Shown here: piece after piece, positions 1 to 64,000 of the stretch
How the letters are laid out: each line of letters starts with the position of its first letter
Position numbering within the stretch: position 1 is the first letter of the stretch
Virus record (IMG/VR): IMGVR_UViG_3300037070_003613
Coordinates: 62,001-126,000 of that record
Length of the DNA: 64,000 nt
DNA from: a virus
Reading direction: 5' to 3' (one strand)
Notes under the pieces: model-generated
What the model was told of the DNA's origin: nothing
Databases searched by the model: none
Seen by the model: only the letters and a program-made list of their open reading frames with translations
Position numbers and translations under genes: made by a program

Positions 1-545
1 TCTGCGCTCGGTGCGGCACTTCGTTCACCGTGTTCCGGAGCGATGTGAACCGTGGACGTCGCTTCTGCTCACCGAAATGCGCAGGCGTGGATCTGTCCGA
101 GCACCGGCGCGGTCCGACTCACCACCGCTACCGGCGAGCGACGACACGCTGTGAGATCTGCGGCGTCGCCTTCGAGCACGTGCCAGCCAAGCGTCGGCGG
201 TTCTGCTCGAAGTCCTGCTCGAACAGATCCCGCAAGTACCCAAGTGGGTCGGCGAACCCGAACTGGCGGGGCGGCGTGGCAGCCCGGTGGCGGAACTTCT
301 ACCTCACCCCCGAATGGATCGCCGTTCGCGACGCCGTGCTTCAACGTGACGGATGGCGCTGTCAGCACACCGGATGCCCGGGACGGCGAGGGAAGTTGCA
401 CGTGCATCACATCATCCATCTCGGAGATGGCGGCGCTCCGTATAACGACGCCAACCTAATCACGCTCTGCGGTGGTTGCCACACGGGGCACCATCGGCGA
501 GGCGACGTGCTTGTGTTCGATCCGCCCCGACCGGGGGTGCAGTGA
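1..545 (+). CDS. HNH endonuclease, 5' end cut by window edge
   Basis: The frame is already open at base 3, so the gene begins before the window. GTG 30 is the first in-window start candidate, but it would cut off the Cys pair CARC that completes the first zinc ribbon. The visible protein has two zinc ribbons (CARC with RRFCSPKC; CEIC with RRFCSKSC), then an HNH core: RDGWRC, HVHHIIH and CGGCHTGHH. Such enzymes nick or cut DNA; known phage roles are homing or assisting terminase. Its place directly before the head genes fits either. Its stop overlaps the next start by one base (TGATG). Confidence 0.85.
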   Translation, partial: CARCGTSFTVFRSDVNRGRRFCSPKCAGVDLSEHRRGPTHHRYRRATTRCEICGVAFEHVPAKRRRFCSKSCSNRSRKYPSGSANPNWRGGVAARWRNFYLTPEWIAVRDAVLQRDGWRCQHTGCPGRRGKLHVHHIIHLGDGGAPYNDANLITLCGGCHTGHHRRGDVLVFDPPRPGVQ

Positions 546-880
546 TGCCAATGGGACCGTACCGGAACTTTGCGGACTGCGTCGCCAAGAACCAGGACAA
601 GGCCAACCCGGAGGCGTATTGCGGCAAGATCAAGCACCAGGCCGAAGGCGCCGTGTTCGCCACCGGGCGCGGCGCGCAGGACGGCGACTGGGTGCGCGCC
701 CGGCCGATGAGCATCGAGGACACGGGGGACATGATCGTCGGCGGCGCCCCCCACCCGGCGCCGGTCACCGGGCTGCTCACCATCGTGCGCTCGAAGCTCC
801 CGGGCGTGTCGCGCTACTCGGTCGCCGGTCTCACCGTCGACCCGGCGACGATCACCGTCGTGGCTCCACCATCGCAATAG
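545..880 (+). CDS. Conserved head-module protein (111 aa)
   Basis: Starts at ATG 545 inside the stop of the HNH gene, which implies translational coupling. The N terminus carries NFADCV followed by PEAYCGKIK, a short Cys-containing motif that I know from the starts of actinophage capsid-protease-region proteins. The rest is a small soluble protein with no motif I can name. Because it sits between the nuclease and the protease genes, a role in head assembly is likely but inferred. The upstream frame is open to 476, but that would overlap the HNH gene by 70 bases without a ribosome site. Confidence 0.65.
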   Translation: MPMGPYRNFADCVAKNQDKANPEAYCGKIKHQAEGAVFATGRGAQDGDWVRARPMSIEDTGDMIVGGAPHPAPVTGLLTIVRSKLPGVSRYSVAGLTVDPATITVVAPPSQ

Positions 881-883
881 CCT
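878..883 (+). promoter_or_regulatory. Candidate -10 box for a leaderless start
   Basis: TAGCCT lies seven bases before ATG 891, and there is no Shine-Dalgarno sequence. The box overlaps the stop codon of the preceding gene. Judged by position only; no clear -35. Confidence 0.35.
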
Positions 884-890
884 GCGTTCG

Positions 891-2027
891 ATGGGCGCAG
901 TGATCGTGCTACTCCCCGCCGACCCGGCGGCGCTCGCAGCGGACGACGGCGACCCGGCGGAGGAACTCCACGTCACCCTGCTGTACCTGTCCGACGAGAC
1001 GCTGCCGCCCGACCAGTACGCGCTCGTGTCCGAAGCTGTCGCCTCGTGCGCGTCGATGCCGCCGATCGACGCCGACGTGTCCGGCGCCGGGATGCTCGGC
1101 AAGGACGCCGCGATCGTGCTGATCCTCGAATCGCAAGAGATCATGGATGTGCGCGCGCAACTCAAGGACGCCTGCGCGGCGTTGATGAACGACGCCGTCC
1201 AGTTCCCGTCGTTCATCCCGCATCTCACCATCGGCTACGCCGACTCCGTCGAGCACGGCCAATCCCTCCTCGATCACTGCCTGCCGATGGTCGGCGACGT
1301 GATCACGCTCGACCGCCTCGCCTGCTTGAACGGCGACGAACGCCACGAAACCCCGCTCGGCGCCGCCGCCGAACCCGCCGAGGTCGACATCGAGTCCGAT
1401 GTCTACTCGGAACCGATCTTCACATTCGCCGCCCCGGCAGCGGTCCCGCCGCCGGTGCCGGGCGCGGCTGCTCCCGCCCCGGGTCCCGCCCCGGGCGCGG
1501 GAGCACGTCCGAAGCGACAGGTGATCCTGGTCGGGATGCCGGTGGTCGATCCGAGCAAGGTGCCGTACAAGCCGACCGGCCTGCCGTACCAGTCACCGGA
1601 GCCGTACGTCGCGCTGCTCGAAGTCAAGCTCCGCCAGAACGAGGTCCCCGAGCAACTCGCCCAGGTGCTCGGGGACGTCCACCCGCCACCCGCCACGTCG
1701 ACGGCGACGAAGTCGCTGACCGCATCGGACACACGCCCGGCACGACGCGCGGTGCTGATGGACCCGGCACCATTGGCCGCGGCGTCCGACGCGATCAAGG
1801 CCGCGCTCGAACCGTACGGCACGACCGTCGATGACTACCCGTTCGTCGTGCAACTCGGCAACGAAGGCATCAGCAAAGCGGACGTGGTGGCATTGAAGGG
1901 CCAAGCGGTCGACTTCGCCGGACTGATCGCAGTCCTCCCGGACGGCACCGTGATCCACGAGGACAAAGGCCAGAGCGCGCCATCGACCACTGAGCCGACG
2001 ACGGCCGATACTGTTGCGGCGACGTAG
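891..2027 (+). CDS. 2H phosphoesterase-domain head-region protein
   Basis: 378 residues. The N-terminal domain has the two HxT motifs that define the 2H phosphoesterase superfamily: HVTLLY at residues 27-32 and HLTIGY at 111-116, with typical spacing. Family members hydrolyse cyclic or 2',3'-linked nucleotides, and some phage members destroy cyclic-nucleotide immune signals or repair RNA. A Pro/Ala-rich linker (about 180-205) leads to a C-terminal region containing KRQVILVGMPVVDP and an alpha/beta-looking segment that I do not recognise. It lies between head genes, so it may be made late or enter the virion; that is inference. ATG 891 has no ribosome site and may be leaderless. Confidence 0.65.
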   Translation: MGAVIVLLPADPAALAADDGDPAEELHVTLLYLSDETLPPDQYALVSEAVASCASMPPIDADVSGAGMLGKDAAIVLILESQEIMDVRAQLKDACAALMNDAVQFPSFIPHLTIGYADSVEHGQSLLDHCLPMVGDVITLDRLACLNGDERHETPLGAAAEPAEVDIESDVYSEPIFTFAAPAAVPPPVPGAAAPAPGPAPGAGARPKRQVILVGMPVVDPSKVPYKPTGLPYQSPEPYVALLEVKLRQNEVPEQLAQVLGDVHPPPATSTATKSLTASDTRPARRAVLMDPAPLAAASDAIKAALEPYGTTVDDYPFVVQLGNEGISKADVVALKGQAVDFAGLIAVLPDGTVIHEDKGQSAPSTTEPTTADTVAAT

Positions 2028-2030
2028 TTA
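2021..2030 (+). promoter_or_regulatory. Late-region GTAGTT motif
   Basis: GACGTAGTTA sits in the leader before the protease gene, about 55 bases from its start. The GTAGTT core recurs in the leaders at 4.4, 7.8 and 33.2 kb, always before structural genes that have good ribosome sites. Candidate late-promoter element. Confidence 0.3.
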
Positions 2031-2083
2031 CACGGGTGCGGTTTCGGGTGTCCGGGCCGCATCCGCTGCAACAGGAGGATGCC

Positions 2084-4036
2084 ATGACAGCACCAGCCTC
2101 AACGACCGCCGCCAAGCCCGGCGACCGTTTCCGCGCCGCCGCCGCAGCCAAGCGTGCCACGTTCGCCGACCCGATGGCCGGTGACCCGATGGCCGGTGAC
2201 GCGCCCGCCGAGCCAACCGGGGCAGCGATCACGCTCGGACTGGTGGCCGAGGACGGCACACCGATCGGCGACATCGGCACCATCAACTACGACGGCGACC
2301 CGTCCGAGGTCGACGCCGCGCTCGCCGGTGTCTCGATCGTGTTCACGTCACCAGATGTCGTTGACCTCGCGCCGCTGCAATCGGCGTTGGAGGGTTTGGG
2401 AATCACCGAGGCACAGTTGAACAGCGCACCCCCGGACGGGATCCCGGCCGAGGGTGGGACCTACACCGTCGCCGTCGTTGGGGGTGACGGCGGCGGCGGT
2501 GATGTCCCCGCTGACGTCCCGGCCCCCGAGTTCTCGTGGCGTCGGGCGGGCGACTTCGGCGCGGTCGCGGTCACCGACGACCCGAAGGCGCCCCGCTGGC
2601 AAGGTCTGCTCGTGGTCGAAGGCATCAAGTCCGGCGACGGACGCCAGATCGACTTTGAGGCGTTGACGTGGCGGAACCTGCCGCTGCCCTTGATGATGAT
2701 GACCCGCAACCCAGTCGGCGGCGAAGGCCACGACGGAGCGGAACTCGCCGGACGGATCGACAAGATCGAACGCAAGGACAACGGCGAGATCTGGGGCAGC
2801 GGCATCCTCGACTCCGGGTCCGAAGCTGGCAAGGAAGCGATGCGGCTGCTCACCCCCGACGCTGACGGCTTCACGTTGCTGCGCGGCGTGTCCGTCGATC
2901 TCGATGACGTCGAGATGGCATTCGAGGGACCCGAAGGCATCATCGACATCGGCGACCTCGGCATGTCGGCACCGATGAAGGTCGCCAAGGGCCGCATCAT
3001 GGGCGCGACGTTGACGCCGTTCCCCGCGTTCCAAGAGGCACAAGTCACGCTCGTGTCCGACAACGCGCTGATCGCGGCGATCACCGGTGGCGGCTGCGAC
3101 TGCGACCATGAGGCAGCGATGGTCGCCTCCGCTGGCGAACCGATGAAGGGCGCCCAGGTCCGGGTGTTCACACCATTCGGCGCCGACGCTCTCGTCGCCT
3201 CGGCCGGTTCGGCGCCGGTCATCCCGCTGCGCCCACCTGTCGCCTGGTTCGAGTGCCCGGCGCACGACGCCATCGCCGACGAGTCGGTTCGGATCACGAG
3301 CGACGGCCGCATCTACGGCCTCGCCGCCGACGACAAGTCGTGCCACATCGGCTTCGCCGATCGTTGCGTGCGGACACCCAAGTCGCGCGCCAACTACCGC
3401 TACTTCGCGAACAAGCAATGCGAGACCGCCGAAGGGATCATGGTCGCCTCGGGTCCGATCTTCATGGACACCGTCCACCCATCGTTGAAGTTGAAGGCAT
3501 CGGACGCGCAGGCGTTCTACGCCCACACCGGATGCGCTGTCGCGGACGTCGCCGTGTACGACACGCCGAAGGGCATGTACGTCGCCGGTGCCGTGCGACC
3601 ATCCGCTACGCCCGACCAGATCCGTGCCCTGCGCGGCTCGGACATCTCGCCCGACTGGCGCATCATCCAAGGCCACCTCGAATGCGTCGCGCTGCTCGCC
3701 GTCAACACGTCCGGCTTCATCACCCCGGCGCTCGTCGCGTCGGCCGGTGAAGCCGCGCTCGACGGCGCGGTCAAGCCCGGCAAGGTCGCTGTCGAGGTGT
3801 CGTTCGAGACCGGCGAGATCCTGGCGCTCGTGGCGGCAGGCATGAAGCCGCACACCGGCTCCGGTGTCGCCGCGCTCTCGGCCGAGGTCGAGACACTGCG
3901 CGCGCAGGTCGAGACGCTGATGGCGACGCAACTCGCCGAACGCAAGGCAGCCGCGCTCGGCAAGCTGCAAGCCCGCCGCCAACGCGCGCTCGACGCCCGG
4001 TTCGCCGAGGCACGCCAGCGGTTTACGCGCAAGTGA
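2084..4036 (+). CDS. Capsid maturation protease, large multidomain form
   Basis: 650 residues from ATG 2084, chosen because AGGAGG (2073-2078) lies five bases before it; a GTG at 2036 has no such site. The central domain (about 150-325) is an HK97-type prohead protease: GHDGAE with His216, GVSVDLDD with Ser270, and the family signature GRIMGATLTPFPAF near 303-316. It processes capsid and scaffold during head maturation. A second region (about 385-560) repeats WFECPAHDAI-like and HTGCAVADVAVYD segments and may be an additional structural domain. The C terminus is a coiled coil rich in Ala, Arg and Gln that could act as scaffold. Residues near 30-39 hold an MAGD duplication. Confidence 0.85.
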   Translation: MTAPASTTAAKPGDRFRAAAAAKRATFADPMAGDPMAGDAPAEPTGAAITLGLVAEDGTPIGDIGTINYDGDPSEVDAALAGVSIVFTSPDVVDLAPLQSALEGLGITEAQLNSAPPDGIPAEGGTYTVAVVGGDGGGGDVPADVPAPEFSWRRAGDFGAVAVTDDPKAPRWQGLLVVEGIKSGDGRQIDFEALTWRNLPLPLMMMTRNPVGGEGHDGAELAGRIDKIERKDNGEIWGSGILDSGSEAGKEAMRLLTPDADGFTLLRGVSVDLDDVEMAFEGPEGIIDIGDLGMSAPMKVAKGRIMGATLTPFPAFQEAQVTLVSDNALIAAITGGGCDCDHEAAMVASAGEPMKGAQVRVFTPFGADALVASAGSAPVIPLRPPVAWFECPAHDAIADESVRITSDGRIYGLAADDKSCHIGFADRCVRTPKSRANYRYFANKQCETAEGIMVASGPIFMDTVHPSLKLKASDAQAFYAHTGCAVADVAVYDTPKGMYVAGAVRPSATPDQIRALRGSDISPDWRIIQGHLECVALLAVNTSGFITPALVASAGEAALDGAVKPGKVAVEVSFETGEILALVAAGMKPHTGSGVAALSAEVETLRAQVETLMATQLAERKAAALGKLQARRQRALDARFAEARQRFTRK

Positions 4037-4497: not shown

Positions 4498-6258
4498 ATG
4501 GACGTCATCAACTTCCCACAGGACCTCACGCAACTCGAACCCGATCAGTTGACGGCGTTGGAGCAGCAGATCAACTCGCGCGGCGAAGAACTCTCCGACG
4601 CCGAGTCCTCGCCCGAGTCGGTCGATGAACTCGAACTGCTCTCGCAGCAGGCCGACGCGATCGACGCCGAGAACACCCGCCGTGAGACCGAGCGGGCAGA
4701 CCTCGACGGCCGCAAGGAAGCCGCCGCCGGGCGCTTCAAGAAGGACCTCGCCGACCCGACCGAGGGCGACCAGGTCACCATCGGCGAGAACGAGGAGGAC
4801 CTGGACGAGGACGGCAAGCCGAAGGCCAAGGCCAAGGTCGAAGCCGCACCCGAGCCTGCGATCATCGACCAGATCGCCGCCGCCGTGTCGGCCGGGGTCA
4901 CCCAGGCGCTCGCCATCGCCGGGGTCACGATGCCGAACGGCAAGGGCGGGGTGCCGGGCAACGTCGCCGCCCTCTCAGCCCGCCAGTCGGCCCGCTCGAA
5001 GGTCCGCGAAGCCAGCAACGACGCCTTCATGGTGGCGACGGCGCACGCCCCGCACATGCGCGAAGGCACCCCGTTCGAGGACCCGTTGGCCGTCGCCTCG
5101 GCGATCGTCAACAAGCGTCTCAGCCTGACGTCGGTGCCGGGCGGCACGCGCGACTTCGTGTCGATCGCCCACACCGACAAGTTCATCGAGGGCGAGCACC
5201 TGTCGCAGATGGACGCGGCGGAGAACTTCCGCATCCTGCGCGACGTCCAGGTCGGAGCGCCGAAGGCACTCGTTGCCTCCGGTCACGCCTGCGCCGAGTA
5301 CGCCCCGAGCTACGAGTTCTTCCGCCTCGCGGAGCCGCAGAACCCGTTTGAGCAGGGGACCAACGTCGTGCAGGCGCCTCGTGGCGGCATCAACTACATC
5401 GTGCCGCCGTCCGTCGCCGCCGCCGCCGCCGCCATCGACATCTCGGCCCAGGACCGCAACTTCGCAGCGTCGTTCGTGCAGTTCTCGGCCGGTCCGAAGG
5501 CGTGCATCACGGTGTCGTGCCCGAGCACCTCGTCGGCCGAGGTGTCGGCCGTGTCGCAATGCGTCACGTTCGACAACCTCAACTACAAGGTGTTCCCGGA
5601 GCAGGTGTCGGCGTTCCTTGAGGACGTCGCCGTCCAGTTCATGTCGACCAAAGAGGTGTTCTACCTCGACTACGTCAACTCGAACTCGACGGCGGTCACC
5701 GGCAACTACTGCTACGGCTTCTCGCGCAGCCTGCTGCACGACTGGGTCACGGCCACGGTCGGCTACCGCAAGCGTCACGGCATGGCGTCGGACGCGACGA
5801 TGCAAGTCGCCGCTCCGGACTGGGCGCGTGAGGCCGTCAAGCTCGACATGGCGATGGACGGGTACCAAGGTCTGTCGTTCTTCGACATCACCGACAACCA
5901 CATGAACGCTGCCCTGTCGGCCCGCAACATCGACGCCATCTGGTACAACGACAACCCGACCGGGGTGTTGCCGAACCAGAAGTTCAACGGCGCCCAGGCG
6001 GTCGGTGGCCTCAACCAGTTCCCGACGAAGGTCAAGGCGTTCATCTACGCACCAGGGACGTTCGTCCGCCTCGACGGCGGCACGCTCGACGTCGGCCTCG
6101 TGCGTGACAGCACGCTCAACCGCACCAACGACCTGCAACTGTTCATGGAGGAGTGGATCGGCATCGCGAAGCTCGGCTTCGAGTCGGTCGGCCTCCTGAG
6201 CACGCTGTGCGTCAACGGCTCGGGTCCCGCCGGTGTCACGCCTTGCACCTGCCCCTGA
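4498..6258 (+). CDS. Major capsid protein with N-terminal scaffold domain
   Basis: 586 residues from ATG 4498, preceded by GCAGGAGC. Residues 1-100 are acidic and helical (LTQLEPDQLTALEQQINSR and onward), the delta/scaffold domain that the protease normally removes. The rest fits an HK97-fold capsid: a long beta-rich body and the end APGTFVRLDGGTLDVGLVRD followed by QLFMEEWIGIAKLGFESVGL, typical of actinophage capsid subunits. The C terminus is unusually Cys-rich (CVNGSG, PCTCP). It builds the icosahedral shell around packaged DNA. A hairpin follows the gene, as expected for a highly expressed message. Confidence 0.85.
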   Translation: MDVINFPQDLTQLEPDQLTALEQQINSRGEELSDAESSPESVDELELLSQQADAIDAENTRRETERADLDGRKEAAAGRFKKDLADPTEGDQVTIGENEEDLDEDGKPKAKAKVEAAPEPAIIDQIAAAVSAGVTQALAIAGVTMPNGKGGVPGNVAALSARQSARSKVREASNDAFMVATAHAPHMREGTPFEDPLAVASAIVNKRLSLTSVPGGTRDFVSIAHTDKFIEGEHLSQMDAAENFRILRDVQVGAPKALVASGHACAEYAPSYEFFRLAEPQNPFEQGTNVVQAPRGGINYIVPPSVAAAAAAIDISAQDRNFAASFVQFSAGPKACITVSCPSTSSAEVSAVSQCVTFDNLNYKVFPEQVSAFLEDVAVQFMSTKEVFYLDYVNSNSTAVTGNYCYGFSRSLLHDWVTATVGYRKRHGMASDATMQVAAPDWAREAVKLDMAMDGYQGLSFFDITDNHMNAALSARNIDAIWYNDNPTGVLPNQKFNGAQAVGGLNQFPTKVKAFIYAPGTFVRLDGGTLDVGLVRDSTLNRTNDLQLFMEEWIGIAKLGFESVGLLSTLCVNGSGPAGVTPCTCP

Positions 6259-6296
6259 CGATCCCTGACACAACTCAACAGTGACGGACACGGCGA

Positions 6297-6326
6297 GGGT
6301 GCCACCTGTGCAGCCGGGTGGCACCC
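6297..6326 (+). terminator. Hairpin after the capsid gene
   Basis: GGGTGCCACC and GGTGGCACCC form a perfect ten-base stem with a ten-base loop, about 40 bases after the capsid stop and 40 before the next start. There is no U tract. It could trim read-through and set a higher capsid level than downstream genes. Confidence 0.6.
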
Positions 6327-6365
6327 GAACCGTCCCCGTCCACCATCGAGAACCAGGAGTGAATC

Positions 6366-15600: not shown

Positions 15601-16711
15601 GTTCCACTCGGCACCGCCCGCCCCCGAAGCCCAGACGATCGACATCCCGACCGGCGACCTGACCCTGACCGGCGTCGAACCGGTCGTCGCCGGGTCGAGC
15701 ACCGCGACGATCCTCGCCCCAATCGGCGCGTTGACGCTGACCGGTGTCGCGCCGACGATCTCGGCCCCGGCCACCATCGCAATCCCGCCGGGCACGCTCA
15801 CGATCACCGGGGTCGCGCCGACTGTTACGCCGACCGGCACGGCGACGATCCTCGCCCCGGTCGGAGCGTTGACGCTCGCAGGCGTCGCGCCAGCCGTCAC
15901 CGTCCGAATCACCATCGCGATCCCGCCTGGCGCCCTCGCGCTGACCGGCGTCGCGCCGGTCGTGACCGCGACGGGGACCGCGACGGTTCTCGCCCCGACC
16001 GGGCAGATCACGATCAGCGGGCGGACGCCGACCGTCGCCGGGACCGGCACTCGCACGATCCCCGCGCCGACCGGCACGATCACGCTGACCGGGGTCGCGC
16101 CGACCGTCGACGCCAGCACCCGGATCGAGATCCCACCCGGACAGATCACGCTGACCGGTGTCGCCCCCGTCATCACCGCGACCGGGACCGCGACCGTCCT
16201 CGTCCCGACCGGCACGTTGACGATCAACGGTGTCGCCCCGTTCGTCTCCTCGACCGGCGGCTTCAACATTCAGATCCCGACCGGTCTGCTGACCCTGACC
16301 GGCGTCGCGCCGATCACGACCGGCGGAGCGGGCACCGTCACCATCCCGACCGGCACGCTGACCCTGACCGGTGTGGCACCGATCGTCACGGCCACCGGCT
16401 CGGCGACGGTGCTCGTGCCGACCGCTCAGGTGACGCTCTCGGGTGCCGCACCATCGGTGTCGGGCACCGGCGCCGCCACGTCGATCGAGATCCCGACCGG
16501 CGACATCATCCTCGTCGGCGCCGCGCCAGGGGTCCTGTTCCGCGGCACGGTCTCGTTGGAGGTCCTGGTCCCGACATGCACGCTCGAAGTGCTGGCGCCG
16601 ACCGTCGAACTCGAAGTGCTCACCCCGACCGTCGACCTCGACGTGTACGCCACCATCGTCACGCTCGAAGTGCTCGCACCAACAGTGGTGCTCACACAGT
16701 CAGCGGATTAA
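12668..16711 (+). CDS. Giant repeat fibre with lectin-like domain
   Basis: 1347 residues from ATG 12668, coupled to the previous stop; the frame is open back to 12404 but that part overlaps another gene. Residues about 95-280 form a concanavalin/laminin-G-like jelly roll (NFNRGTVDLGYNW, GVVLLARDG, GVRLYADGVLQL). The remainder carries about 28 copies of a 20-24-residue unit, P-P/T-G-x-L-T-L-T-G-V-A-P-x-V, separated in the first two thirds by Arg-rich modules such as NRRRSTLAVA. The C terminus changes to a ten-residue LEVLAPT repeat. It looks like a long thin fibre; its attachment point is not known. Confidence 0.7.
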   Translation: MVAYRVPAHNPPRLAPPVSMAVGPLAAPPLTIDIPTGDITFATDTPPVVTVVPQLDSLLNDQSRHHQTVHTAVRRDPDRSAIWNHSTRSRYQQPPYLRIIDNFNRGTVDLGYNWRFPGPGVIDLGPLVPLSIVSDVVPISSPLIGGMIWRSNRFADIQSAEVTVTMGSGDGTAGVVLLARDGNLDNCFIAVWRVDSGIGTYRVYAIVNGISDIGTFAVAPTSGTIRIKGESTGTGVRLYADGVLQLTRLDASFTSGDVGIAGWVSTGSAITLDDFSAEPSVEDIPNLAYDHRFLRGDIFRRPNLGLQPYSQALRRRFEAPPYVINQEDDLAPMLVAQRRPAIHAAVRPRPDRTAHRASLPRYHQLPPFVLDVALTIIIPVADLIFAGVAPTIAGTGTATIPIPPGDITFAGVAPDVAVGMDPLLYVDINRRRWALAAAGRRGPPWQRPTRTRTTQAVQIAAQTIAIPPGDLVITGVAPTVTGTGTATILEPTGAITFLGISPFVSATGGFNVQVPTGALTIDGVAPAVTTGMDPSLIVDQNRRRSTLAIATRRDPARPWLRSHRLNVPLVAYPQTIAVPPGDIVLTGVEPDVTAGMDIALIYDQNRRRSTVNTATRRAPVQRPAVRRGGTIPGEAQTIPIPPADLTLVGVAPIVAGTGTATIAVPPGALTITGVAPVVTATGTATIPVPPGPVTLTGVAPVVTSTGTATILAPTGQLTINGISPFVSSTGGFNVQIPTGALTLTGVAPVVAGSSTATILVPPGLLTIDGIAPDVTTGMDPALYVDVNRRRSTLAVAVRRLPARFWVRQSKLDPNLIAFPQTIAIPPGDLTLTGVAPVATATGTATILTPVGALTIDGVAPSVAGTGTATILAPVGLITLTGVEPTIFAGDDPVYLADANAAYRQAVNTAAWRNPDASAPWKWMLRRRRSDRQGGLLPSAVAAGFPLVPNVNRKQQLQVRLVAARRDVNTAAQRVMAQRFHSAPPAPEAQTIDIPTGDLTLTGVEPVVAGSSTATILAPIGALTLTGVAPTISAPATIAIPPGTLTITGVAPTVTPTGTATILAPVGALTLAGVAPAVTVRITIAIPPGALALTGVAPVVTATGTATVLAPTGQITISGRTPTVAGTGTRTIPAPTGTITLTGVAPTVDASTRIEIPPGQITLTGVAPVITATGTATVLVPTGTLTINGVAPFVSSTGGFNIQIPTGLLTLTGVAPITTGGAGTVTIPTGTLTLTGVAPIVTATGSATVLVPTAQVTLSGAAPSVSGTGAATSIEIPTGDIILVGAAPGVLFRGTVSLEVLVPTCTLEVLAPTVELEVLTPTVDLDVYATIVTLEVLAPTVVLTQSAD

Positions 16712-17007
16712 CCGGCGTGAGCGTTGTCGCCGGTGACGTTCGCCATCGGGACGACAGGGGTGCCCGGCTCGGGGGCGAGCAGGCCACGCTGCGACTTGAT
16801 GACCGGTGTCGAGCGGCGCACGATCGCGATCGCGGCGCCGATCCACGACACGACCTTGCTGCCCCACTTCGTGAACACCTCGGCCTTGTCGGACGGCAAC
16901 TCCTCGGCGACCTCGCCGATGATGATGGGGGCGATCAGAGCGGCGGCGACGAGCCACGTGTTGACGGCGGTGCCGAGCACCCTGATGCGAGCGATGAGAC
17001 CGTTCAT
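16708..17007 (-). CDS. Holin
   Basis: 99 residues; TAGGAGAACCAA precedes the ATG. One clear hydrophobic segment (TWLVAAALIAPIIIGEV) and a second amphipathic one (WGSKVVSWIGAAIAIV), then a polar Pro-rich tail. Size, topology and position directly after the endolysin gene fit a phage holin, which opens the membrane at lysis time. It is the last gene of the leftward unit; its stop overlaps the stop of the fibre gene on the other strand, so the two transcripts converge here with no terminator between them. Confidence 0.7.
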   Translation of the reverse strand: MNGLIARIRVLGTAVNTWLVAAALIAPIIIGEVAEELPSDKAEVFTKWGSKVVSWIGAAIAIVRRSTPVIKSQRGLLAPEPGTPVVPMANVTGDNAHAG

Positions 17008-17016
17008 TTGGTTCTC

Positions 17017-17787
17017 CTACGAGTTGGCGAGTTGGATGAACACAGCCTGCGTCTGAGGGCCGATGATCCCATCCGGCGTCAGCTTGAACGCCGTCTGGAT
17101 GTTCTTCACGGCGGTGACGGTCTGCGCCCCGTACTTGCCGTCAACGATGATCGTCTTCGAGCCGCCGACCGCGCCCGGGGCACGGATCACGGTCTGGACC
17201 ATTGCGACGTCTGGGCCTTCCATACCGGGCTTGATGACACGAGGGAACACGATGGCAACTCCTGACGGTGGAAGCGGTGGCGGGTTGACCGGCGGCGGTG
17301 CGAGGCCGAGACGGGCGGAGATGTCGACAGCGTCACCCCACCCTTCCGGGTTCGTTTCGATGTGGAAGTACGTCGCCCACGCGTCGCCCATCCCCTCGGC
17401 GGTCGTGTTCGTCTTCCACCACGACGTGTGCGCGTCGGCGACACTCGATGTGCGCCCGGCACGCCAGATCCGTGACCCGAAGTAGTCGTGGATCGCCTGG
17501 ACGTGCAACTCATGCGAGTTGTCGATCAGGAATGGGATGATCACGTTCTTGGCGGTCAGCCGATCCGGATAGTTGCGGTCCGTCGCCGCGCCCCACCAGT
17601 GGACCGATGGAGTCGTGCCGCCCCGGATCGGACGCTGCCCGTAGCAGCCGTTGTTCGTCATCGCGAACCGTTTACCGAGATAGTTCCCGAGGCAGATCAG
17701 GTTCGGGGAGCAGGTGTGGTACTTCGGGGTGGCCGGGTCGGCGAGCAAACCCCAGTTGTAGAAGTGGGTCTCGACCGACATGGGCAT
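17017..17787 (-). CDS. Endolysin with C-terminal peptidoglycan-binding domain
   Basis: 256 residues if it starts at ATG 17787, two fewer from ATG 17781; the longer open frame to 18114 overlaps the upstream gene. Residues about 1-160 look like a peptidase domain: HDYFGSRIW, then WATYFHIETNPEGWGDAVD, which could supply the His and Asp ligands of an M15-like metal site; this assignment is tentative. A Pro linker (PPPVNPPPLPP) leads to a clear PG_binding_1 domain (GMEGPDVAMVQ to DGIIGPQT). It should cut host cell wall at lysis, released by the adjacent holin. Confidence 0.75.
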   Translation of the reverse strand: MPMSVETHFYNWGLLADPATPKYHTCSPNLICLGNYLGKRFAMTNNGCYGQRPIRGGTTPSVHWWGAATDRNYPDRLTAKNVIIPFLIDNSHELHVQAIHDYFGSRIWRAGRTSSVADAHTSWWKTNTTAEGMGDAWATYFHIETNPEGWGDAVDISARLGLAPPPVNPPPLPPSGVAIVFPRVIKPGMEGPDVAMVQTVIRAPGAVGGSKTIIVDGKYGAQTVTAVKNIQTAFKLTPDGIIGPQTQAVFIQLANS

Positions 17788-17824
17788 CCAACCTAGTGAG
17801 TCGCAACCCGCGACCGGGGGACCC

Positions 17825-19852: not shown

Positions 19853-19867
19853 CGGACGCGACCCTAG

Positions 19868-22760: not shown

Positions 22761-22768
22761 TGGTTCTC

Positions 22769-23911: not shown

Positions 23912-23912
23912 G

Positions 23913-45580: not shown

Positions 45581-45998
45581 TACCCCCCCCGACATGCGGC
45601 CACTCGAACGTCTCCTCGCGTCCCGCGATTACGCGCTCTACCATGCCCGCCGCAGCTACCGGCCGAACCTGATGTTCAGCGGCTCGACGCTGTCGTTCCG
45701 CCCGGACATGATGCGCCGTGTCGCCGCCGAAGCACCGATCCTGACCGAGATCGACCGGTTGAAGCGATGGCAGATCCGGGTCCCCGAGCACTCGTACCAG
45801 ACCGACTGCGAGGTGACGTTCGCTCTCGACTTCACGTGGATCTCCGAGACGTGGAACGACGGGCTGGCATGGTCGTTCTTCAACGAGTTCCCGATGTACG
45901 TGCAATGCACCCTCGACCATCTGCTCGATGACAACCCGTTCTTCGTGCGGCCGTCGATCATCATGTTCCCGCGGCTGATCGACATGACCGTCTCGTGA
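45570..45998 (+). CDS. Hypothetical protein (142 aa)
   Basis: ATG 45570 lies ten bases before the previous stop. LERLLASRDYALYHARRSYR, then SGSTLSFRPDMMRRVAAEAP and FNEFPMYVQCTLDHLLDD. Mixed alpha/beta; no family recognised. Coupled to the helicase-loader gene by four bases. Confidence 0.55.
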   Translation: MSGDTPPDMRPLERLLASRDYALYHARRSYRPNLMFSGSTLSFRPDMMRRVAAEAPILTEIDRLKRWQIRVPEHSYQTDCEVTFALDFTWISETWNDGLAWSFFNEFPMYVQCTLDHLLDDNPFFVRPSIIMFPRLIDMTVS

Positions 45999-46528
45999 AC
46001 AAGGTCGACGCGCTCAAGCTGATCGGCGCCGCGCAGATGCTCTGGCCGTCGTGGCGCGACGCACCATCGACGCAACGCGACGTGGCGTTGATGGCCGACG
46101 TGTGGCTGACCGTCCTCGAAGACGTCCCCGCCGACCTCGCGTACGCGGCGTTGACGGTGCTCGCCGCCGAGGGCCGCGAGTTCATACCCCCACCCGGTGT
46201 GATCCGCCGCCACGCGATCCTGCTCCGCGCCCGAGCGTCCGGCGATCTCCCGCCCGGCGTCGATGAGGCGTGGCGCGAGGTCCAGACCCGGGTCCGCAAA
46301 GAGGGCCGTCACGGCTGGAACGACGACTGGTCGCATCCGTGTATTGACGAGACCGTGCAAACGATGGGGTGGTGGCAACTCTGCGACGGCGCCAACCAGG
46401 ACTCGCTGCGCGCCCACTTCCGCCAGTTCTACACCGAGGCCACGACCCGCCACGAACGCGACCTGGTGCTCTCGGACTCGATGCTCGACGTGATCACGAC
46501 CGCCTCACTGCGTGCCCTCGCGGAATGA
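45995..46528 (+). CDS. Helicase loader-like protein (G39P type)
   Basis: 177 residues. The N-terminal half (VALMADVWLTVLEDVPADLA, YAALTVLAAEGREFIPPPGV, IRRHAILLRAR) fits the helical fold of SPP1 G39P-like loaders, which bring the replicative helicase to the initiator at the origin. The C half is helical with conserved Trp (EAWREVQTRVR, HGWNDDWSHPC). A helicase gene is not in this window. Overlaps the previous gene by four bases. Confidence 0.7.
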   Translation: MNKVDALKLIGAAQMLWPSWRDAPSTQRDVALMADVWLTVLEDVPADLAYAALTVLAAEGREFIPPPGVIRRHAILLRARASGDLPPGVDEAWREVQTRVRKEGRHGWNDDWSHPCIDETVQTMGWWQLCDGANQDSLRAHFRQFYTEATTRHERDLVLSDSMLDVITTASLRALAE

Positions 46529-46541
46529 CGCCACCATCGCG

Positions 46542-46547
46542 TACTGT
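46542..46547 (+). promoter_or_regulatory. Candidate -10 box for a leaderless start
   Basis: TACTGT ends six bases before ATG 46554; no ribosome site and no clear -35. Confidence 0.45.
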
Positions 46548-46553
46548 TCTCAC

Positions 46554-46937
46554 ATGATCCAACGTTTCCACGCAGAGAACTGGCTCCACGACGAGATCCC
46601 GTGGGGTGGCGTCGTCAAGCTGATCACCGCCCACCCGACCGACAAAGCCCAGTCCGGCACCCTCGGCGAGTACGCGCTGAACAACCCGGCGCTGTACATC
46701 CGTTGGCAGGAAGGCCCGCTCGTCGCCCCTGACGGATCCCGCTACGAGGCGAACGGCTGCTTCGTGGAGACCGTGATCGAGGCCGCGCTGCAACGCATGG
46801 AGTTCTACCAGGAGACCCGGTTCGCGTGCGAGGAGAACCAGGAGATCATCGACCATCTGCGCAAGGCGATCGCCTGGTGTCAGGAACGAACCGCGCGCCG
46901 CGAGGCCCGCCAAGTGGAAGGAACCAGCCAGGTATGA
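46554..46937 (+). CDS. Hypothetical protein (127 aa)
   Basis: ATG 46554 is chosen because of the -10 box six bases upstream and because the frame upstream is intergenic. WGGVVKLITAHPTDKAQSGT, then CFVETVIEAALQRMEFYQET and a helical end (LRKAIAWCQERTARREAR). Resembles small phage proteins of the Acb-region type in size only; no family recognised. Confidence 0.5.
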   Translation: MIQRFHAENWLHDEIPWGGVVKLITAHPTDKAQSGTLGEYALNNPALYIRWQEGPLVAPDGSRYEANGCFVETVIEAALQRMEFYQETRFACEENQEIIDHLRKAIAWCQERTARREARQVEGTSQV

Positions 46938-47344
46938 AAGTTCATATCTTTCGACACGTCGCCCCCGACAAGATCGACATCGGCGACGTCGTGTTGTGGG
47001 ACAACGACGACCCGATCGAAGTCGAGTCGATCACCCGCACCAAGGACGGCTACGACCTGACGGGCCACTCGCGCCACAAGCCGGGCCTCCGGGCGGTCAC
47101 CATGAAGCCGCGGGACTCACTCATCCGTGTGATCCCGAACCGGAGCGAGGCCGAGAAGATCTTGGCGGAACTCAAGAAAGCTGTCACGGACAGCGACCCG
47201 GCGACGTGGAACGTCGAACTGATCAACGATCTCAAGCCGCTCGTCATCCGCGGCAAGGCGAGCGAGTTGGCCAAGGTCACGACGGCCACCACGGGCGAGA
47301 AGGTCACGGTCGGCGATCCCGTCAACGATGCCCCTGTTTCGTAG
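46934..47344 (+). CDS. Hypothetical protein (136 aa)
   Basis: ATG 46934 is coupled to the previous stop. VAPDKIDIGDVVLWDNDD, then ITRTKDGYDLTGHSRHKPGL and a helical C half (EAEKILAELKKAVTDSDPAT). First half looks like a small beta barrel; no family recognised. Overlaps the next gene by 17 bases. Confidence 0.5.
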   Translation: MKVHIFRHVAPDKIDIGDVVLWDNDDPIEVESITRTKDGYDLTGHSRHKPGLRAVTMKPRDSLIRVIPNRSEAEKILAELKKAVTDSDPATWNVELINDLKPLVIRGKASELAKVTTATTGEKVTVGDPVNDAPVS

Positions 47345-47645
47345 GCGCCCGACCACCATCGAGGCCCGCCAGTTCACCGGCGGTGCCGAGTCGGCGACAC
47401 CGATCATCGACTGGGTGCTCGCCGGTGGCGGCACGGCGACATGGATGGAGGCACACCAGGTCGGGATCGCCCCGTACCGACCCGACGACATCAACGAGAT
47501 CGTCGTGATGGAACGGATCTCGCTGCGCACCCTCGAAGGCACGATCTACGTGTCGGTCGGCGACTGGGTGATCAAGGGGACCGCAGGCGAGTTCTATCCG
47601 TGCAAACCCGAGATCTTCGCTGACGTCTACGAGCCACTCGAATGA
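47328..47645 (+). CDS. Conserved phage protein with TLEG/GEFYPCKP motif
   Basis: 105 residues. MPLFRRRPTTIEARQFTGG, then TLEGTIYVSVGDWVIKGTAG and EFYPCKPEIFADVYEPLE are landmarks of a widely distributed small phage protein family. The function of the family is not established; it is usually among early genes of unknown role. Overlaps the methyltransferase gene by four bases. Confidence 0.75.
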   Translation: MPLFRRRPTTIEARQFTGGAESATPIIDWVLAGGGTATWMEAHQVGIAPYRPDDINEIVVMERISLRTLEGTIYVSVGDWVIKGTAGEFYPCKPEIFADVYEPLE

Positions 47646-48271
47646 GCCACATCCGCGCCATCGGCAACCCGCCACGCCGAGGCAACGCCGAGTTGATCGC
47701 GGATCTCGCCCAACTCGGCTACCTGCCGGAGCCGGTGATCGACGTGACGTACGGCAAGGGCCGCTTCTGGAAGCTGTACCGGCCCGAGAAGCTCGTCACG
47801 AACGACTTGGATCCGATCTCGGACTCCATGCTCCACCATGACTTCACGAACTTCCCGGCGCCTGACAGACTGTTCGCGACGGTCGTGTTTGACCCGCCGT
47901 ACAAGCTGAACGGCACCGCCTCCCAGGGAGGCCCGGCCACCTCGGACGACGACTACGGCGTGGGCGGCGACTACCGCACCCCGGCCGAACGTCACGATCT
48001 GATGCGGCGCGGCATGACCGAAGCCGCCCGGATGGCGCGCGAGTTCGTGATCGTGAAGTGCATGGACCAGGTCGTGTCCGGCCGCATCCACTGGCAGACC
48101 GACATGATGACCGAGCACGGCCGCACCATCGGCCTCAACAAGATCGACACCCTCCACGTCTACGGTTACCGGACGCAACCAGCAGGCCGACGCCAAGTCC
48201 ACGCCCACCGCGACTACTCGACGGCACTCGTGTTCGCCGTCCTCCCCGAACCCCCGCCGCAACTCATTTGA
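47642..48271 (+). CDS. DNA methyltransferase (DPPY type)
   Basis: 209 residues. VIDVTYGKGRFWKLY (32-46) is the AdoMet-binding motif, VVFDPPY (81-87) is the catalytic loop of N6-adenine/N4-cytosine methyltransferases, and GMTEAARMAREFVIVKCMDQ follows as the third strand region. No partner nuclease is next to it, so it is an orphan enzyme: host-restriction protection or regulation is likely. The target is unknown; ACCAT is one word to test, but nothing in this gene points to it. Confidence 0.8.
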   Translation: MSHIRAIGNPPRRGNAELIADLAQLGYLPEPVIDVTYGKGRFWKLYRPEKLVTNDLDPISDSMLHHDFTNFPAPDRLFATVVFDPPYKLNGTASQGGPATSDDDYGVGGDYRTPAERHDLMRRGMTEAARMAREFVIVKCMDQVVSGRIHWQTDMMTEHGRTIGLNKIDTLHVYGYRTQPAGRRQVHAHRDYSTALVFAVLPEPPPQLI

Positions 48272-48297
48272 CAAACCGTAGTCGGAGCGAGTAGTGT
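48268..48297 (+). promoter_or_regulatory. Promoter P4, partial copy
   Basis: TTGACAAACCG matches the first 11 bases of P1-P3, but the rest of the spacer differs; TAGTGT (48292-48297) is a weaker -10. The start would be at or a few bases before ATG 48305, so the message may be leaderless. The promoter overlaps the methyltransferase stop. Confidence 0.6.
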
Positions 48298-48304
48298 TGA
48301 GGTC

Positions 48305-48690
48305 ATGGAAGCCACCACGCCGTATCCAGAGTCCGAGAAGATGCACGCCGTCCACGAGACATCGCAAGTGATCGGCGAGTTCATCGAGTGGCTGCCAACA
48401 CGCGGCAAGTTCATCGGCACGTGGCGCACCCTCGTGGACTGCCCGGGCGGCGGAGCGTTCTCGAACTGGACGTGCGAGAGTGGCGTCAAGGTCCATGATC
48501 GCACCGGCGAGGACGGCGGCACTGCCCGGTCTGCGACGGCAAGGGCGTGGTCGAGGCCACGAATCCCATCCCCGAAGTGGACTACGTCGACATCAACAAG
48601 CTGCTCGCCGAGTTCTTCAACATCGACCTGGCGAAGATCGACACCGAACGCCGAGCCATGCTCGACGCGATGCGGGCGGCGAACCCGTGA
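48305..48690 (+). CDS. Conserved phage protein split by a -1 frameshift
   Basis: The first part (MEATTPYPESEKMHAVHETS, then EWLPTRGKFIGTWRTL) is in one frame; the end (CPVCDGKGVVE, VDINKLLAEFFNIDLAKID, ERRAMLDAMRAANP) is in the -1 frame, open from 48499 to TGA 48688. Together they make one protein of a type common in phages, an N-terminal SQxIGEFIEWL-like helix and a C-terminal FNIDLAKIDTE...MLDAMRAAN helix pair. Either a programmed shift in the GC-rich stretch 48499-48523 or an assembly indel. Runs from promoter P4. Confidence 0.5.
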
Positions 48691-48854
48691 CCAGCAAGCG
48701 CGACAGCGTCGGCCGGGTCGCCGTGTGGGTCACAGACATGCTCGTGCTCAACGCCATCGAGGAGATCGAGCAGGTCGACAACGGATCGGTGGCGTTCGTG
48801 TTCGACGGGCGCCCGATGCGGATCGACATCCGCTGCACCCGGGAGACATCGTGA
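48687..48854 (+). CDS. Small hypothetical protein (55 aa)
   Basis: GTG 48687 overlaps the previous stop (GTGA). VAVWVTDMLVLNAIEEIEQV, then SVAFVFDGRPMRIDIRC: a beta-alpha-beta unit. Real expression is supported by tight packing and by the frame ending cleanly at the next gene. Confidence 0.45.
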   Translation: MTSKRDSVGRVAVWVTDMLVLNAIEEIEQVDNGSVAFVFDGRPMRIDIRCTRETS

Positions 48855-49099
48855 GCACCATGACGAAACTTCGGGTCGTGGCTGACGTGTGGTACGACGG
48901 CGCGCACTTCGTTCGCCGCGACTGCGACACCGGTGAGGAGATCGAGGAGGGCCGCTGGTGCGCGTCGATCGAAACACCTGACGGCGAGATCACCTGGACC
49001 GCCAAGTCGCCGGGCGCGGTCGTCAACACCGCTGACCGTTGGGGCGCCGGGCGCGGCCTCCACGTCGAGATCCACTTCCTCACCCCGGTCGGTGGCTGA
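48851..49099 (+). CDS. Hypothetical protein (82 aa)
   Basis: GTG 48851 or ATG 48860. TKLRVVADVWYDGAHFVRRD, then EEGRWCASIETPDGEITWTA and GLHVEIHFLTPVGG: a small beta sandwich. No family recognised. Its stop overlaps the next start (TGATG). Confidence 0.5.
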   Translation: MSTMTKLRVVADVWYDGAHFVRRDCDTGEEIEEGRWCASIETPDGEITWTAKSPGAVVNTADRWGAGRGLHVEIHFLTPVGG

Positions 49100-49470
49100 T
49101 GGACCAGCCGACACATGACAGCATCCGCGCCAAGCTGAGTCGCGCCGTGCATCCGGGCTTCTCGTACTGCCTGCGTTGCGGGTTTCCGTGGGCGGTGGTC
49201 GAGGGCCATCACACCTCGTACGGCGCGAAGCTGATCGAGTCGTACCGGGCGCTCGACGCCGACGTGCGGGCGATGGTCAACTCAGGTCAGGTGTCGCTGC
49301 TCGGCGACGGCGCGTGTTTCCCGCTGTGCGAGAAGTGCTGGGCGAAGCTGACCGTCGAGGAACGCGAGCCGTACTACTGGAAGTTGCTGCGTCTGTGGGA
49401 CACGCCCGACTATCCGCTGTCGGAGGAAGTCGCGCACCAGGTGATTGCCGCCTGCCGGGAGGGACTGTGA
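49099..49470 (+). CDS. Zinc-ribbon HNH-like phage protein (123 aa)
   Basis: CLRCGFPWAVVEGHHTSYGA and CFPLCEKCWAKLTVEEREPY give four Cys plus two His in an order like degenerate HNH/zinc-ribbon phage proteins. Without a clear catalytic Asn/His pair, it may bind nucleic acid rather than cut. Coupled to both neighbours. Confidence 0.6.
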   Translation: MDQPTHDSIRAKLSRAVHPGFSYCLRCGFPWAVVEGHHTSYGAKLIESYRALDADVRAMVNSGQVSLLGDGACFPLCEKCWAKLTVEEREPYYWKLLRLWDTPDYPLSEEVAHQVIAACREGL

Positions 49471-49724
49471 CGATCGTCGCCAAGATCCACGCCCGGCCCG
49501 GCCGGATCGACTGGGAGACGCTCCAACGCGAGGAGACCGACCAGATCGACTCGATCCCCTGCGACCCGGAGTTGGGTGTGATGTTCGAGCTTCGCCTGAC
49601 CCGCCCACCATCGTTGGAGGGGCGCCGGGCGGTGCTCGTGATCCCACCCGAGCATCTCGGCGGCGTTCTGAAAGCTGTCAAGGCGGCGATGATCGCGCAA
49701 CGCTCGAAGGCGATGACACCATGA
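49467..49724 (+). CDS. Small hypothetical protein (85 aa)
   Basis: GTG 49467 (GTGA overlap). PGRIDWETLQREETDQIDSI, then VMFELRLTRPPSLEGRRAVL and a C-terminal helix. No family recognised. Confidence 0.45.
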   Translation: MTIVAKIHARPGRIDWETLQREETDQIDSIPCDPELGVMFELRLTRPPSLEGRRAVLVIPPEHLGGVLKAVKAAMIAQRSKAMTP

Positions 49725-50281
49725 GCCACCAGCGCGCCGAGTTCCCGCGGATCGTGGATCGGTGGACGGAGATCTCCGAGGCCCGCATCGCCGACAAGTC
49801 GTTGCGGCCGGACTGCTGCGTGCTCGCCTCGAAGGTGCTGCTCGTGGCGTTCACCGAGGCCGGGTTCGAGGCCAGCGCCGAACCGACGTACACGGTCGCC
49901 ACGAACCGGGCGTCATGGCAGTGGCAGGGACGCCCGATCAAAGAGTGGCCACCGGAGGCGTGGTCGGTCGGGGTCGAACCCGGGCAGCGGATCGACACCG
50001 GCTCGTACCCGGGGCATCTGGTCGTGGTCGTCAAAGTCGACGGCGAACTGTGGATGGTCGACGGTTCGTCCGGTCAGTTGTCGCGCCCGGCGAAACAGAT
50101 GACGATCCCCCGTGTGCTCGCGTTCCCGATCGCCAACTGGCCGGACCGGGTGTGGGTCCGCAACTTCGACTGGGCAATCCAGTACACGCCCGCACCATTG
50201 GGCAAGCTGCATCGGGTCGGGAACGACTGGACGAAGAACTGGCGGAAGTACGCCGAACAGATGAGGGAGTGCAACGCATGA
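49721..50281 (+). CDS. Transglutaminase/cysteine-peptidase-like protein
   Basis: 186 residues from ATG 49721. The segment LRPDCCVLASKVLLVAFTEA has a Cys32-Cys33 pair at the N cap of a helix, followed by His99 in SYPGHLVVVVKV and Asp114 in LWMVDGSSGQ. This Cys-His-Asp order and spacing match papain-like/transglutaminase-fold phage proteins. It could cleave or cross-link a host or phage protein. No signal peptide, so it acts in the cytoplasm. Fold assignment is inference from the motif pattern. Confidence 0.5.
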   Translation: MSHQRAEFPRIVDRWTEISEARIADKSLRPDCCVLASKVLLVAFTEAGFEASAEPTYTVATNRASWQWQGRPIKEWPPEAWSVGVEPGQRIDTGSYPGHLVVVVKVDGELWMVDGSSGQLSRPAKQMTIPRVLAFPIANWPDRVWVRNFDWAIQYTPAPLGKLHRVGNDWTKNWRKYAEQMRECNA

Positions 50282-50451
50282 CACCGTGGCCCGAGCAGTG
50301 GCTCCTCGTGTACCCGGAGGGACGCGGCGTCGTCTACAACCGGCCGGTCGGGATTGATGAGCAACCGTGGGCGGTCGGCGTCGTCCACATCCACCCAGAC
50401 GGCACCGCCACCACCATCCAGTTCGCCCGCCCAGGAAAGCAGGAGTCATGA
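50278..50451 (+). CDS. Small hypothetical protein (57 aa)
   Basis: ATG 50278 is coupled to the previous stop. MTPWPEQWLLVYPEGRGVVY, then AVGVVHIHPDGTATTIQFAR: an antiparallel beta unit. No family recognised. Confidence 0.45.
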   Translation: MTPWPEQWLLVYPEGRGVVYNRPVGIDEQPWAVGVVHIHPDGTATTIQFARPGKQES

Positions 50452-50882
50452 ACGAGGCCCACGACGAGACCGGCCGGTTCGTTCCGGATCCCCGCCTCGA
50501 ACGTGTCGGGGATATCTTCGAGAGCTTCGACCGGATGATCGACCACATGGCCGCCCTACTGGTGAAGGGCCGCGCGTTGATCGCGTTCCATCAGCGGATG
50601 GAGGACCACCTCATGGATTCGCTGATCGAGATCGCCTCGCTCGGCGGACCGGCCGGGGAGGTCGCCGCGGAGGCGCTGATTGTCGCCTGGCCCGAGGCCG
50701 GTTGGGACGACAACATCAACGTGATGTTGACCGACTACGCCCGCAAGATCACACCGGCCGAGTGGCGGCGCCGCAAGCTGGCCGGGGATCTCAACTGGCC
50801 GCATCAGCACCAGGGACTCGACGGCTGGATGGCGTCCTGCGACCAGGACCACGTCGAGTTCGAGGTCCGCCATGACGACTGA
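50448..50882 (+). CDS. Helical hypothetical protein (144 aa)
   Basis: GCAGGAGTC precedes ATG 50448. Long amphipathic helices: RVGDIFESFDRMIDHMAALL, HQRMEDHLMDSLIEIASLGG and AAEALIVAWPEAGWDD. The C terminus has a short polar segment (NWPHQHQGLDGWM). No family recognised; overlaps the next gene by 11 bases. Confidence 0.5.
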   Translation: MNEAHDETGRFVPDPRLERVGDIFESFDRMIDHMAALLVKGRALIAFHQRMEDHLMDSLIEIASLGGPAGEVAAEALIVAWPEAGWDDNINVMLTDYARKITPAEWRRRKLAGDLNWPHQHQGLDGWMASCDQDHVEFEVRHDD

Positions 50883-62983: not shown

Positions 62984-63207
62984 ACGTCAAGATCGAGTTC
63001 AACGTCGAGCCGACCGATCGGACACGGCTCGCCATCGCCCGGCTCACCGGCCGACGCGCCGAAGGGCTGGCGTCACGTGACACCGTCAAGCTGTTCTTCA
63101 AGACGTACGGGCTGAACGGCTACGAGTTGATCGCCGAGGAGATCGGCCGCATCAACGAGGAAGCTGCCCGGATCGCCAAGTCTCTCGCCACGGAAGGGGC
63201 ATCATGA
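62980..63207 (+). CDS. Small hypothetical protein (75 aa)
   Basis: ATG 62980. NVKIEFNVEPTDRTRLAIAR, then LASRDTVKLFFKTYGLNGYE and a helical end. Beta-alpha-alpha; could be a small nucleic-acid-binding protein. Confidence 0.45.
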   Translation: MNVKIEFNVEPTDRTRLAIARLTGRRAEGLASRDTVKLFFKTYGLNGYELIAEEIGRINEEAARIAKSLATEGAS

Positions 63208-63530
63208 CAACCACCACCCGCACCCGAGTCACCAAGCGCGAGGCCGAGCGCACGCTCAACGCCGTGAAGCGCATGTTCCGGGCGTACATCTCCGAGGGCT
63301 ACGGTCCCGAACTTCGCAAGGACTGGGACTGGGGCTGGACCACCGAGGCCCATTACGACTGGGCGATCGTCTGGGAAGACGGCTCGCCCTACGACTGGAC
63401 GTACCTGTTCCCCGGCGGCGGCATAGACGAGGAGTTCGGCTTCCGCCACACCGAGGTCGAACTGCCCGAGGGTGTCTGGACCGAGGCGATCACCGGTTGG
63501 GCGCTCGCCATCTACCCGAAGGACTGGTGA
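63204..63530 (+). CDS. Hypothetical protein (108 aa)
   Basis: ATG 63204 is coupled. KREAERTLNAVKRMFRAYIS, then a Trp-rich part (WDWGWTTEAHYDWAIVWEDG) and VELPEGVWTEAITGWALAIY. Trp-rich small phage protein; no family recognised. Confidence 0.5.
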   Translation: MTTTTRTRVTKREAERTLNAVKRMFRAYISEGYGPELRKDWDWGWTTEAHYDWAIVWEDGSPYDWTYLFPGGGIDEEFGFRHTEVELPEGVWTEAITGWALAIYPKDW

Positions 63531-63533
63531 CCG

Positions 63534-63713
63534 ATGAACGCTGAACTCCGCTCCCTCATCCGGCTCCGCGACGCTGCGTTGCGGGATCTCGACCGGGCCG
63601 ACCGGATCGACAAGGGGAGCCGCTGGCTCACGCACCCGGACGAGATGCGCAGCCTGTCAGCCCGCTTCCACGAACTCGACGCCCGGGTCGAGGCGATGGG
63701 CGAGTCACCATGA
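63534..63713 (+). CDS. Small helical protein (59 aa)
   Basis: ATG 63534. AELRSLIRLRDAALRDLDRA, then MRSLSARFHELDARVEAMGE: two amphipathic helices. No family recognised. Confidence 0.45.
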   Translation: MNAELRSLIRLRDAALRDLDRADRIDKGSRWLTHPDEMRSLSARFHELDARVEAMGESP

Positions 63714-63799
63714 TCCTGTTCGGCTGGATCGTGGAAGCACTCACGATCGACTTCCTCATCTTCGATCTCATCCACCACCTACGAAAGGCACACCACTGA
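63710..63799 (+). CDS. Membrane peptide (29 aa)
   Basis: ATG 63710 is coupled (ATGA). ILFGWIVEALTIDFLIFDLI is hydrophobic; ends HHLRKAHH. Stop overlaps the next start. Confidence 0.4.
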   Translation: MILFGWIVEALTIDFLIFDLIHHLRKAHH

Positions 63800-64000
63800 T
63801 GGACCCAGAGGCAACACTTGCGATCGTCAACGACGAAGCCGCCACATCGGATGAGCGTGACTTCGCTGCGCTCGACCTGCTGGTCTGGCTCGCCAAGGGT
63901 GGCGTCCTGCCCCCGATGGAGGGGCTGCGCCCCAAGGCTGATCTGATCGAACGCTGCGAGAGTCGAGTGATCGGCGCCATCGAGGGCTACGAGGAACGCT
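63799..64000 (+). CDS. Hypothetical protein, cut by window end
   Basis: ATG 63799 overlaps the previous stop (TGATG). Visible part: MDPEATLAIVNDEAATSDER, then FAALDLLVWLAKGGVLPPME and GYEER at the edge. The frame is open at the last base, so the gene continues. No family recognised so far. Confidence 0.5.
   Translation, partial: MDPEATLAIVNDEAATSDERDFAALDLLVWLAKGGVLPPMEGLRPKADLIERCESRVIGAIEGYEER

Follow-up and report, generated by a model that had tools for sequence, protein, structure and literature searches.

The pentamer ACCAT, which a first-pass annotation had reported as enriched on one strand of this viral DNA whatever the gene direction, forms the core of a longer word of 7 bp, CACCATY (CACCAT followed by C or T), with the reverse complement RATGGTG. 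The word is sharply defined and asymmetric and points one way round the whole circular genome independently of gene direction, with 150 copies on the + strand against 18 on the - strand (89% in one orientation, about 1 per kb). It is made partly with rare codons and is kept at genome level as individual sites come and go. The original observation is confirmed and the effect is stronger than was stated; its interpretation is partly supported. CACCATY is very probably a selected signal, and it appears to be a polar one, read by a DNA-tracking enzyme.

The genome and its probable host

The window, the whole 64,000-nt stretch analysed, corresponds to bases 62001-126000 of the 147,492-bp IMG/VR virus record IMGVR_UViG_3300037070_003613 (G000). 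Positions are those of the window unless the record is named. The ends of the record share a 121-bp overlap or repeat, and a contig of a different sample, 100% identical, runs across their join, so the record is a complete circular map. A search for further members of the clade returned only that contig. The genome encodes a portal, a major capsid protein, a terminase and a leftward tape measure related to those of actinophages. The nearest prophage relative (capsid identity 53%) sits in Desertimonas flava, which belongs to the actinobacterial class Acidimicrobiia, and the phage probably has an actinobacterial host too. A host search by methylase similarity was uninformative, with best matches of 45-50% identity.

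A simple gene caller of our own assigned about 108 kb to rightward genes and 25 kb to leftward ones. The predicted proteins include no recognisable replicative polymerase, DnaB-type helicase or primase (divergent ones may escape recognition), so host enzymes are probably used. Yet this 147-kb genome has two portal-like genes, at 19990-22080 of the record and 2084-4036 of the window. It also contains a TROVE/Ro60-like protein (record 4738-6351) and an RNA-ligase-like match (window 891-2027).

Four giant ORFs (1749, 1597, 1176 and 759 aa) lie outside the window at 22087-37923 of the record (locus L002), with CCA-adding-enzyme, HNH, GNAT, Mu-F and ParB-like domains. Within them the peptide F-NPWHDEIGRFAPKGTG recurs 17 times in near-identical form, usually just ahead of a domain, and one more copy lies on the - strand near 52414 of the record. 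These ORFs look like polyvalent injected proteins (PMC5512222), in which the repeated peptide would be a linker or a cleavage or packaging tag.

Repeated intergenic elements, all on the + strand, are located at 6960, 7891, 9226, 44686, 59931, 99321, 123205, 123784, 134684 and 145768 of the record. The 10-mer TTGACAAACC (14 copies on one strand, 0 on the other) suggests repeated promoters, and GGAAACCACCA ahead of ATG suggests a repeated start-associated sequence. Avoidance of palindromes is extreme both here and in G001, a relative at about 90%. GCCGGC, GGGCCC, GAGCTC, CTCGAG, AGGCCT, CTGCAG, CAGCTG, AGCGCT, ATCGAT, TTCGAA and GAATTC have zero copies in the 147 kb (for GCCGGC, 142-183 are expected). 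CTGGAG and CTCTTC are also absent; GTCGAC, CGGCCG and GGCGCC are common.

Strand bias and coding sequence

The local counts reported earlier were exact. ACCAT occurs 24 times on the + strand and 7 times on the - strand of the leftward block of tail genes at 16708-32314 (tape measure, 26462-32314), and 17 against 4 times in the rightward stretch 44461-50460. The counts are 143 and 35 over the window and 322 and 82 over the whole record; equal numbers genome-wide, which the annotation had named as evidence against the bias, are not found. Among 30 bins of 5 kb the bias lies towards the + strand nearly throughout, with one bin even (5 vs 5) and none reversed. The longer CACCATC is found 136 times on the + strand of the record and 13 times on the - strand. 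In the window, 74 of the 150 + strand copies of CACCATY are present, for example at 489, 778, 867, 1226, 1768, 2278, 14224, 20074, 24005, 30595, 42428, 56530 and 62723, and the - strand holds seven (read as RATGGTG on +), at 12638, 28730, 29135, 35888, 44100, 56313 and 61253. The leftward block accounts for 12 and 2 of these, against 2.7 and 3.0 in codon shuffles. Spacing of the word is random, and no regular interval was found.

A codon-preserving shuffle had been proposed as the means of refuting the bias. Synonymous codons were permuted within each gene, keeping the protein and the codon counts, and start codons were trimmed in later tests. The bias is not reproduced. In the leftward genes of the window, + strand ACCAT stands at 24 against 12.3 expected, above all 500 shuffles (maximum 20), and CACCATY at 12 against 2.7 (maximum of 500 shuffles, 7); in the rightward window genes CACCATY stands at 53 against 25.5 (maximum of 200, 41). 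Over the whole record the + strand enrichment of CACCATY is 5-fold in leftward genes (19 vs 3.9; maximum of 500, 10) and 2-fold in rightward genes (112 vs 57.0; maximum of 200, 73). On the - strand the rightward genes are at expectation (9 vs 8.7), and a mild local depletion is possible within the leftward ones (2 vs 6.6). The ratio of coding to antisense CACCATC inverts from 101:8 in rightward to 1:17 in leftward genes (Fisher p = 3e-14), and the 15 kb of intergenic DNA holds 16 copies against 3.

These results bear on a functionless origin in codon use, codon pairs or strand-specific mutation bias. Neutral strand skew exists, and in rightward genes some of the surplus of raw ACCAT on the + strand comes from ordinary Thr-Ile codons (in-frame ACC ATC) and from ACCATG start codons. 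The Pro-Ser pair CCA TCG, a rare codon use, is also preferred in both gene directions (31 vs 7.5 expected in rightward genes, 5 vs 1.2 in leftward), so that for this pair only the preceding CA is strand-specific. However, the shuffles preserve protein, codon counts and per-gene composition and still fail, and the preference reverses with gene direction; codon usage and codon pairs were rejected as the cause on these grounds. Start-codon context was rejected as the whole cause since it accounts for some ACCATG sites only. Bias along a single mutational route was also rejected, as most words that differ from CACCATC by one letter occur about as often as expected (CCCCATC is depleted), and a mutational context fits poorly with a sharp 7-bp word whose other neighbours lie near or below expectation. 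A functionless origin is accordingly very improbable. The codon habits noted earlier in the leftward genes are real: Asp-Gly favours GAT GGT, again a use of rare codons (18 vs 3.6 expected; in rightward genes 1 vs 4.1) and Thr-Ile shuns ACC ATC (5 vs 11.7).

Enrichment of the + strand rather than general depletion of the - strand had been argued from a GC content of about 64%. The GC content of the window is 66% by base count, and the argument itself holds under a gene-free, maximal-order Markov model of the record. On the + strand ACCAT is counted 322 times against 189 expected (z 13.4, rank 1 of all 5-mers), and on the - strand 82 times against 91 (z -1.2). The - strand count of CACCATY is likewise close to Markov expectation over the whole record. 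The codon shuffles and the Markov model agree that the bias is bound to the strand and not to the codons.

The same figures contradict the earlier suggestion that sites of a type III (or similar) restriction system are kept in one orientation as a means of evasion. The genome does avoid many restriction palindromes completely, and the shortfall of - strand CACCATY in leftward genes (2 vs 6.6) is in the expected direction. However, evasion predicts one strand emptied and the other without enrichment, whereas the 18 copies on the - strand are near Markov expectation and the + strand is enriched 2- to 5-fold. In the T7 control the EcoP15I word CAGCAG is likewise held in one orientation over a whole phage genome, but with the opposite pattern: one strand is emptied (0 vs 6.5 expected) and the other is at Markov expectation (36 vs 33.4). 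Orientation-based evasion was rejected on these counts and can scarcely be credited.

The boundaries of the word follow from its one-letter variants in genes. CACCATC (118 vs 58.3) and CACCATT (13 vs 2.6) alone are enriched and the others are near or below expectation, which defines the word as CACCATY. The preceding base is free, that is, there is no specificity in the base after RATGGTG; a following G is somewhat favoured and a following T disfavoured. When all 5- to 7-mers were tested jointly, CACCATY alone showed strong strand preference in both gene directions. The strand contrast of CACCATC is 6.0 in rightward and 7.9 in leftward genes taken separately, and unrelated words reach at most about 2.5 in the weaker contrast. 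No such word emerged from the same joint test of seven comparator phages, whose highest-scoring words reach about 2 to 3.6. Nothing on CACCATY was found in the literature on oriented phage words. A further feature of the + strand is that CCCAT is at half its Markov expectation (49 vs 102.5), with ATGGG normal (104 vs 108.5). CCCCATC is at 1 against 17.9 expected in genes, and the shortfall of CCCAT and CCCCATC may be linked to the oriented word.

Polarity, replication and relatives

At fourfold-degenerate sites the strand component of composition shows an excess of A relative to T (+0.165) and of C relative to G (-0.06), and each third of the map gives the same sign. The + strand would thus be lagging-type and the - strand leading-type everywhere, and since the neutral-site skew keeps its sign, replication is taken to be one-directional over the whole molecule. 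RATGGTG would then lie on the G/T-rich leading-type strand. A flip of the word at an origin, raised by the annotation as a check, was looked for round the whole circle and none was seen anywhere.

This polarity is relevant to a primase, either an unrecognised phage enzyme or that of the host, which would start pppACCAUY primers at the template RATGGTG, one-way forks keeping the word on the lagging-strand template. The skew fits, as the + strand looks discontinuously made, and the orientation is constant round the circle. T7 primers also begin with ACC, and the primer-sense word here would do the same. However, no primase or replicative helicase was recognised by Pfam (divergent primases are missable), and bacterial DnaG reads about three bases rather than seven. 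In T7, which has a known sequence-specific primase, GACC is almost unbiased (222 vs 193), so a phage with such an enzyme need not show oriented sites. The gp4 primase sites of T7 are hardly oriented, and the word here is longer and is accompanied by no primase that could be found. A primase is an improbable reader.

The word is shared with G001, in which CACCATY is present 59 times against 7, CACCAT is again the top strand-contrast 6-mer, and ACCAT stands at 122 against 76 expected on the + strand and 49 against 49 on the - strand under the maximal-order Markov model. The + strand CACCAT sites common to both genomes number 25 of 60 alignable, the average for any 6-mer, and greater conservation of position was rejected. 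Because the bias is intact in G001 though its sites have turned over, density and orientation are maintained and not individual positions. The signal is absent from relatives at 44-53% capsid identity. No clear bias of the word was seen in G003, G004, G005, G007, Mimi, Pumpernickel, GMA2, DSL-LC01 or Sixama, the 11 copies against 3 in the 33-kb fragment of G005 being too few to judge. Nor was such a signal seen in 60 Acidimicrobiia genome samples, a set that need not include the host. It is conceivable, if doubtful, that the word is a clade-specific polar code, a 7-bp word kept at about 1 per kb in one orientation and against codon preference for some phage or host reader, with no counterpart in the sampled relatives or host-class genomes.

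A phage DNA methyltransferase or other phage DNA-binding protein may also be considered, for which the word would be a target kept one way round, so that one strand is marked asymmetrically for strand discrimination, packaging or protection from a methylation-dependent system. The genome has at least three genes for DNA methyltransferases. One of them, a candidate reader or modifier at 47642-48271 on the + strand (PHROG 24333, E 1.9e-13), falls in a region with an 81% alignment to G001, and a word with seven sharply fixed positions would suit direct protein recognition. There is, however, no known reason for such a target to be both enriched and oriented, and the specificity of the enzymes is not readable from sequence, which leaves this reading about as improbable as a primase. 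GATC was rejected as an enriched methylase site, since it is not enriched by Markov.

Comparison with known oriented signals

Oriented words such as Chi and KOPS reveal the way in which polarity is read by DNA-tracking enzymes. Through a phage with a single word kept one-way, both the reader enzyme and one-way replication become accessible, and codon shuffles in opposing gene sets, tested jointly, are a general route to such words.

KOPS and SRS resemble CACCATY in being oriented, over-represented and independent of gene direction. They belong to chromosomes and change orientation at ori and dif, whereas the orientation here never flips on a complete circle. Another kind of polar signal, such as KOPS-like guidance of a translocase or a polarity for packaging or ejection, would suit a word that is oriented, genome-wide and randomly spaced. 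However, no FtsK-like translocase was recognised, no gradient or flip marking a target locus was seen round the circle, and nothing specific supports a packaging direction, so this is unlikely.

The leading, though unproven, proposal is that the reader is Chi-type, and it is put forward tentatively. RATGGTG on the leading-like strand would act as Chi does. On entering at an open concatemer end or an injected end, a helicase-nuclease (the host's, or a phage enzyme that escaped recognition) would be switched from degradation to recombination by a correctly oriented RATGGTG. The switch would protect the DNA made by rolling-circle replication or another one-directional mode. Species-specific Chi words belong to other RecBCD and AddAB enzymes; to our knowledge, none has been established for the helicase-nucleases of actinobacteria.

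Several features differ from Chi. No base is required after RATGGTG, whereas E. coli Chi has a final G; at about 1 per kb the word is several times denser than Chi is in E. coli; and 89% of copies are oriented on a phage without any flip. A predicted Mu Gam-like DNA-end-binding protein is encoded at 38808-39410 on the + strand (Pfam PF07352, E 3e-14; PHROG 2205, E 4.8e-23), whereas lambdoid phages with RecBCD inhibitors tend to avoid Chi (PMC3784561). It is followed at 39407-40633 on the + strand by an ATPase of the AAA_24 family (Pfam PF13479, E 1.8e-5, short of the curated cut-off; PHROG 1366, no assigned function) that may be a Sak4-like recombinase. The Chi-type reading is weakened by the Gam-like gene, by the freedom of the base that follows RATGGTG and by the lack of a host with the signal among the Acidimicrobiia samples.

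The word resembles Chi in being short (Chi-like words have 5-8 bp), asymmetric and over-represented beyond codon and composition effects and, as RATGGTG, in lying on the presumed leading-type strand. GATGGTGG is one base off E. coli Chi GCTGGTGG and fits the GNTGGTGG of H. influenzae. In E. coli, Chi is over-represented and 75% lies on the leading strand, although such skew is not universal (PMC5959072). Lambdoid phages with a recombinase and without a RecBCD inhibitor have a median observed-to-expected ratio for Chi of 2.5, and those with inhibitors avoid Chi, a tendency rather than a strict rule (PMC3784561). The ratio here is about 2 to 5. It is this fit in length, strength and strand (PMC3784561, PMC5959072), with the single-base difference of GATGGTGG, that favours the Chi-type reading.
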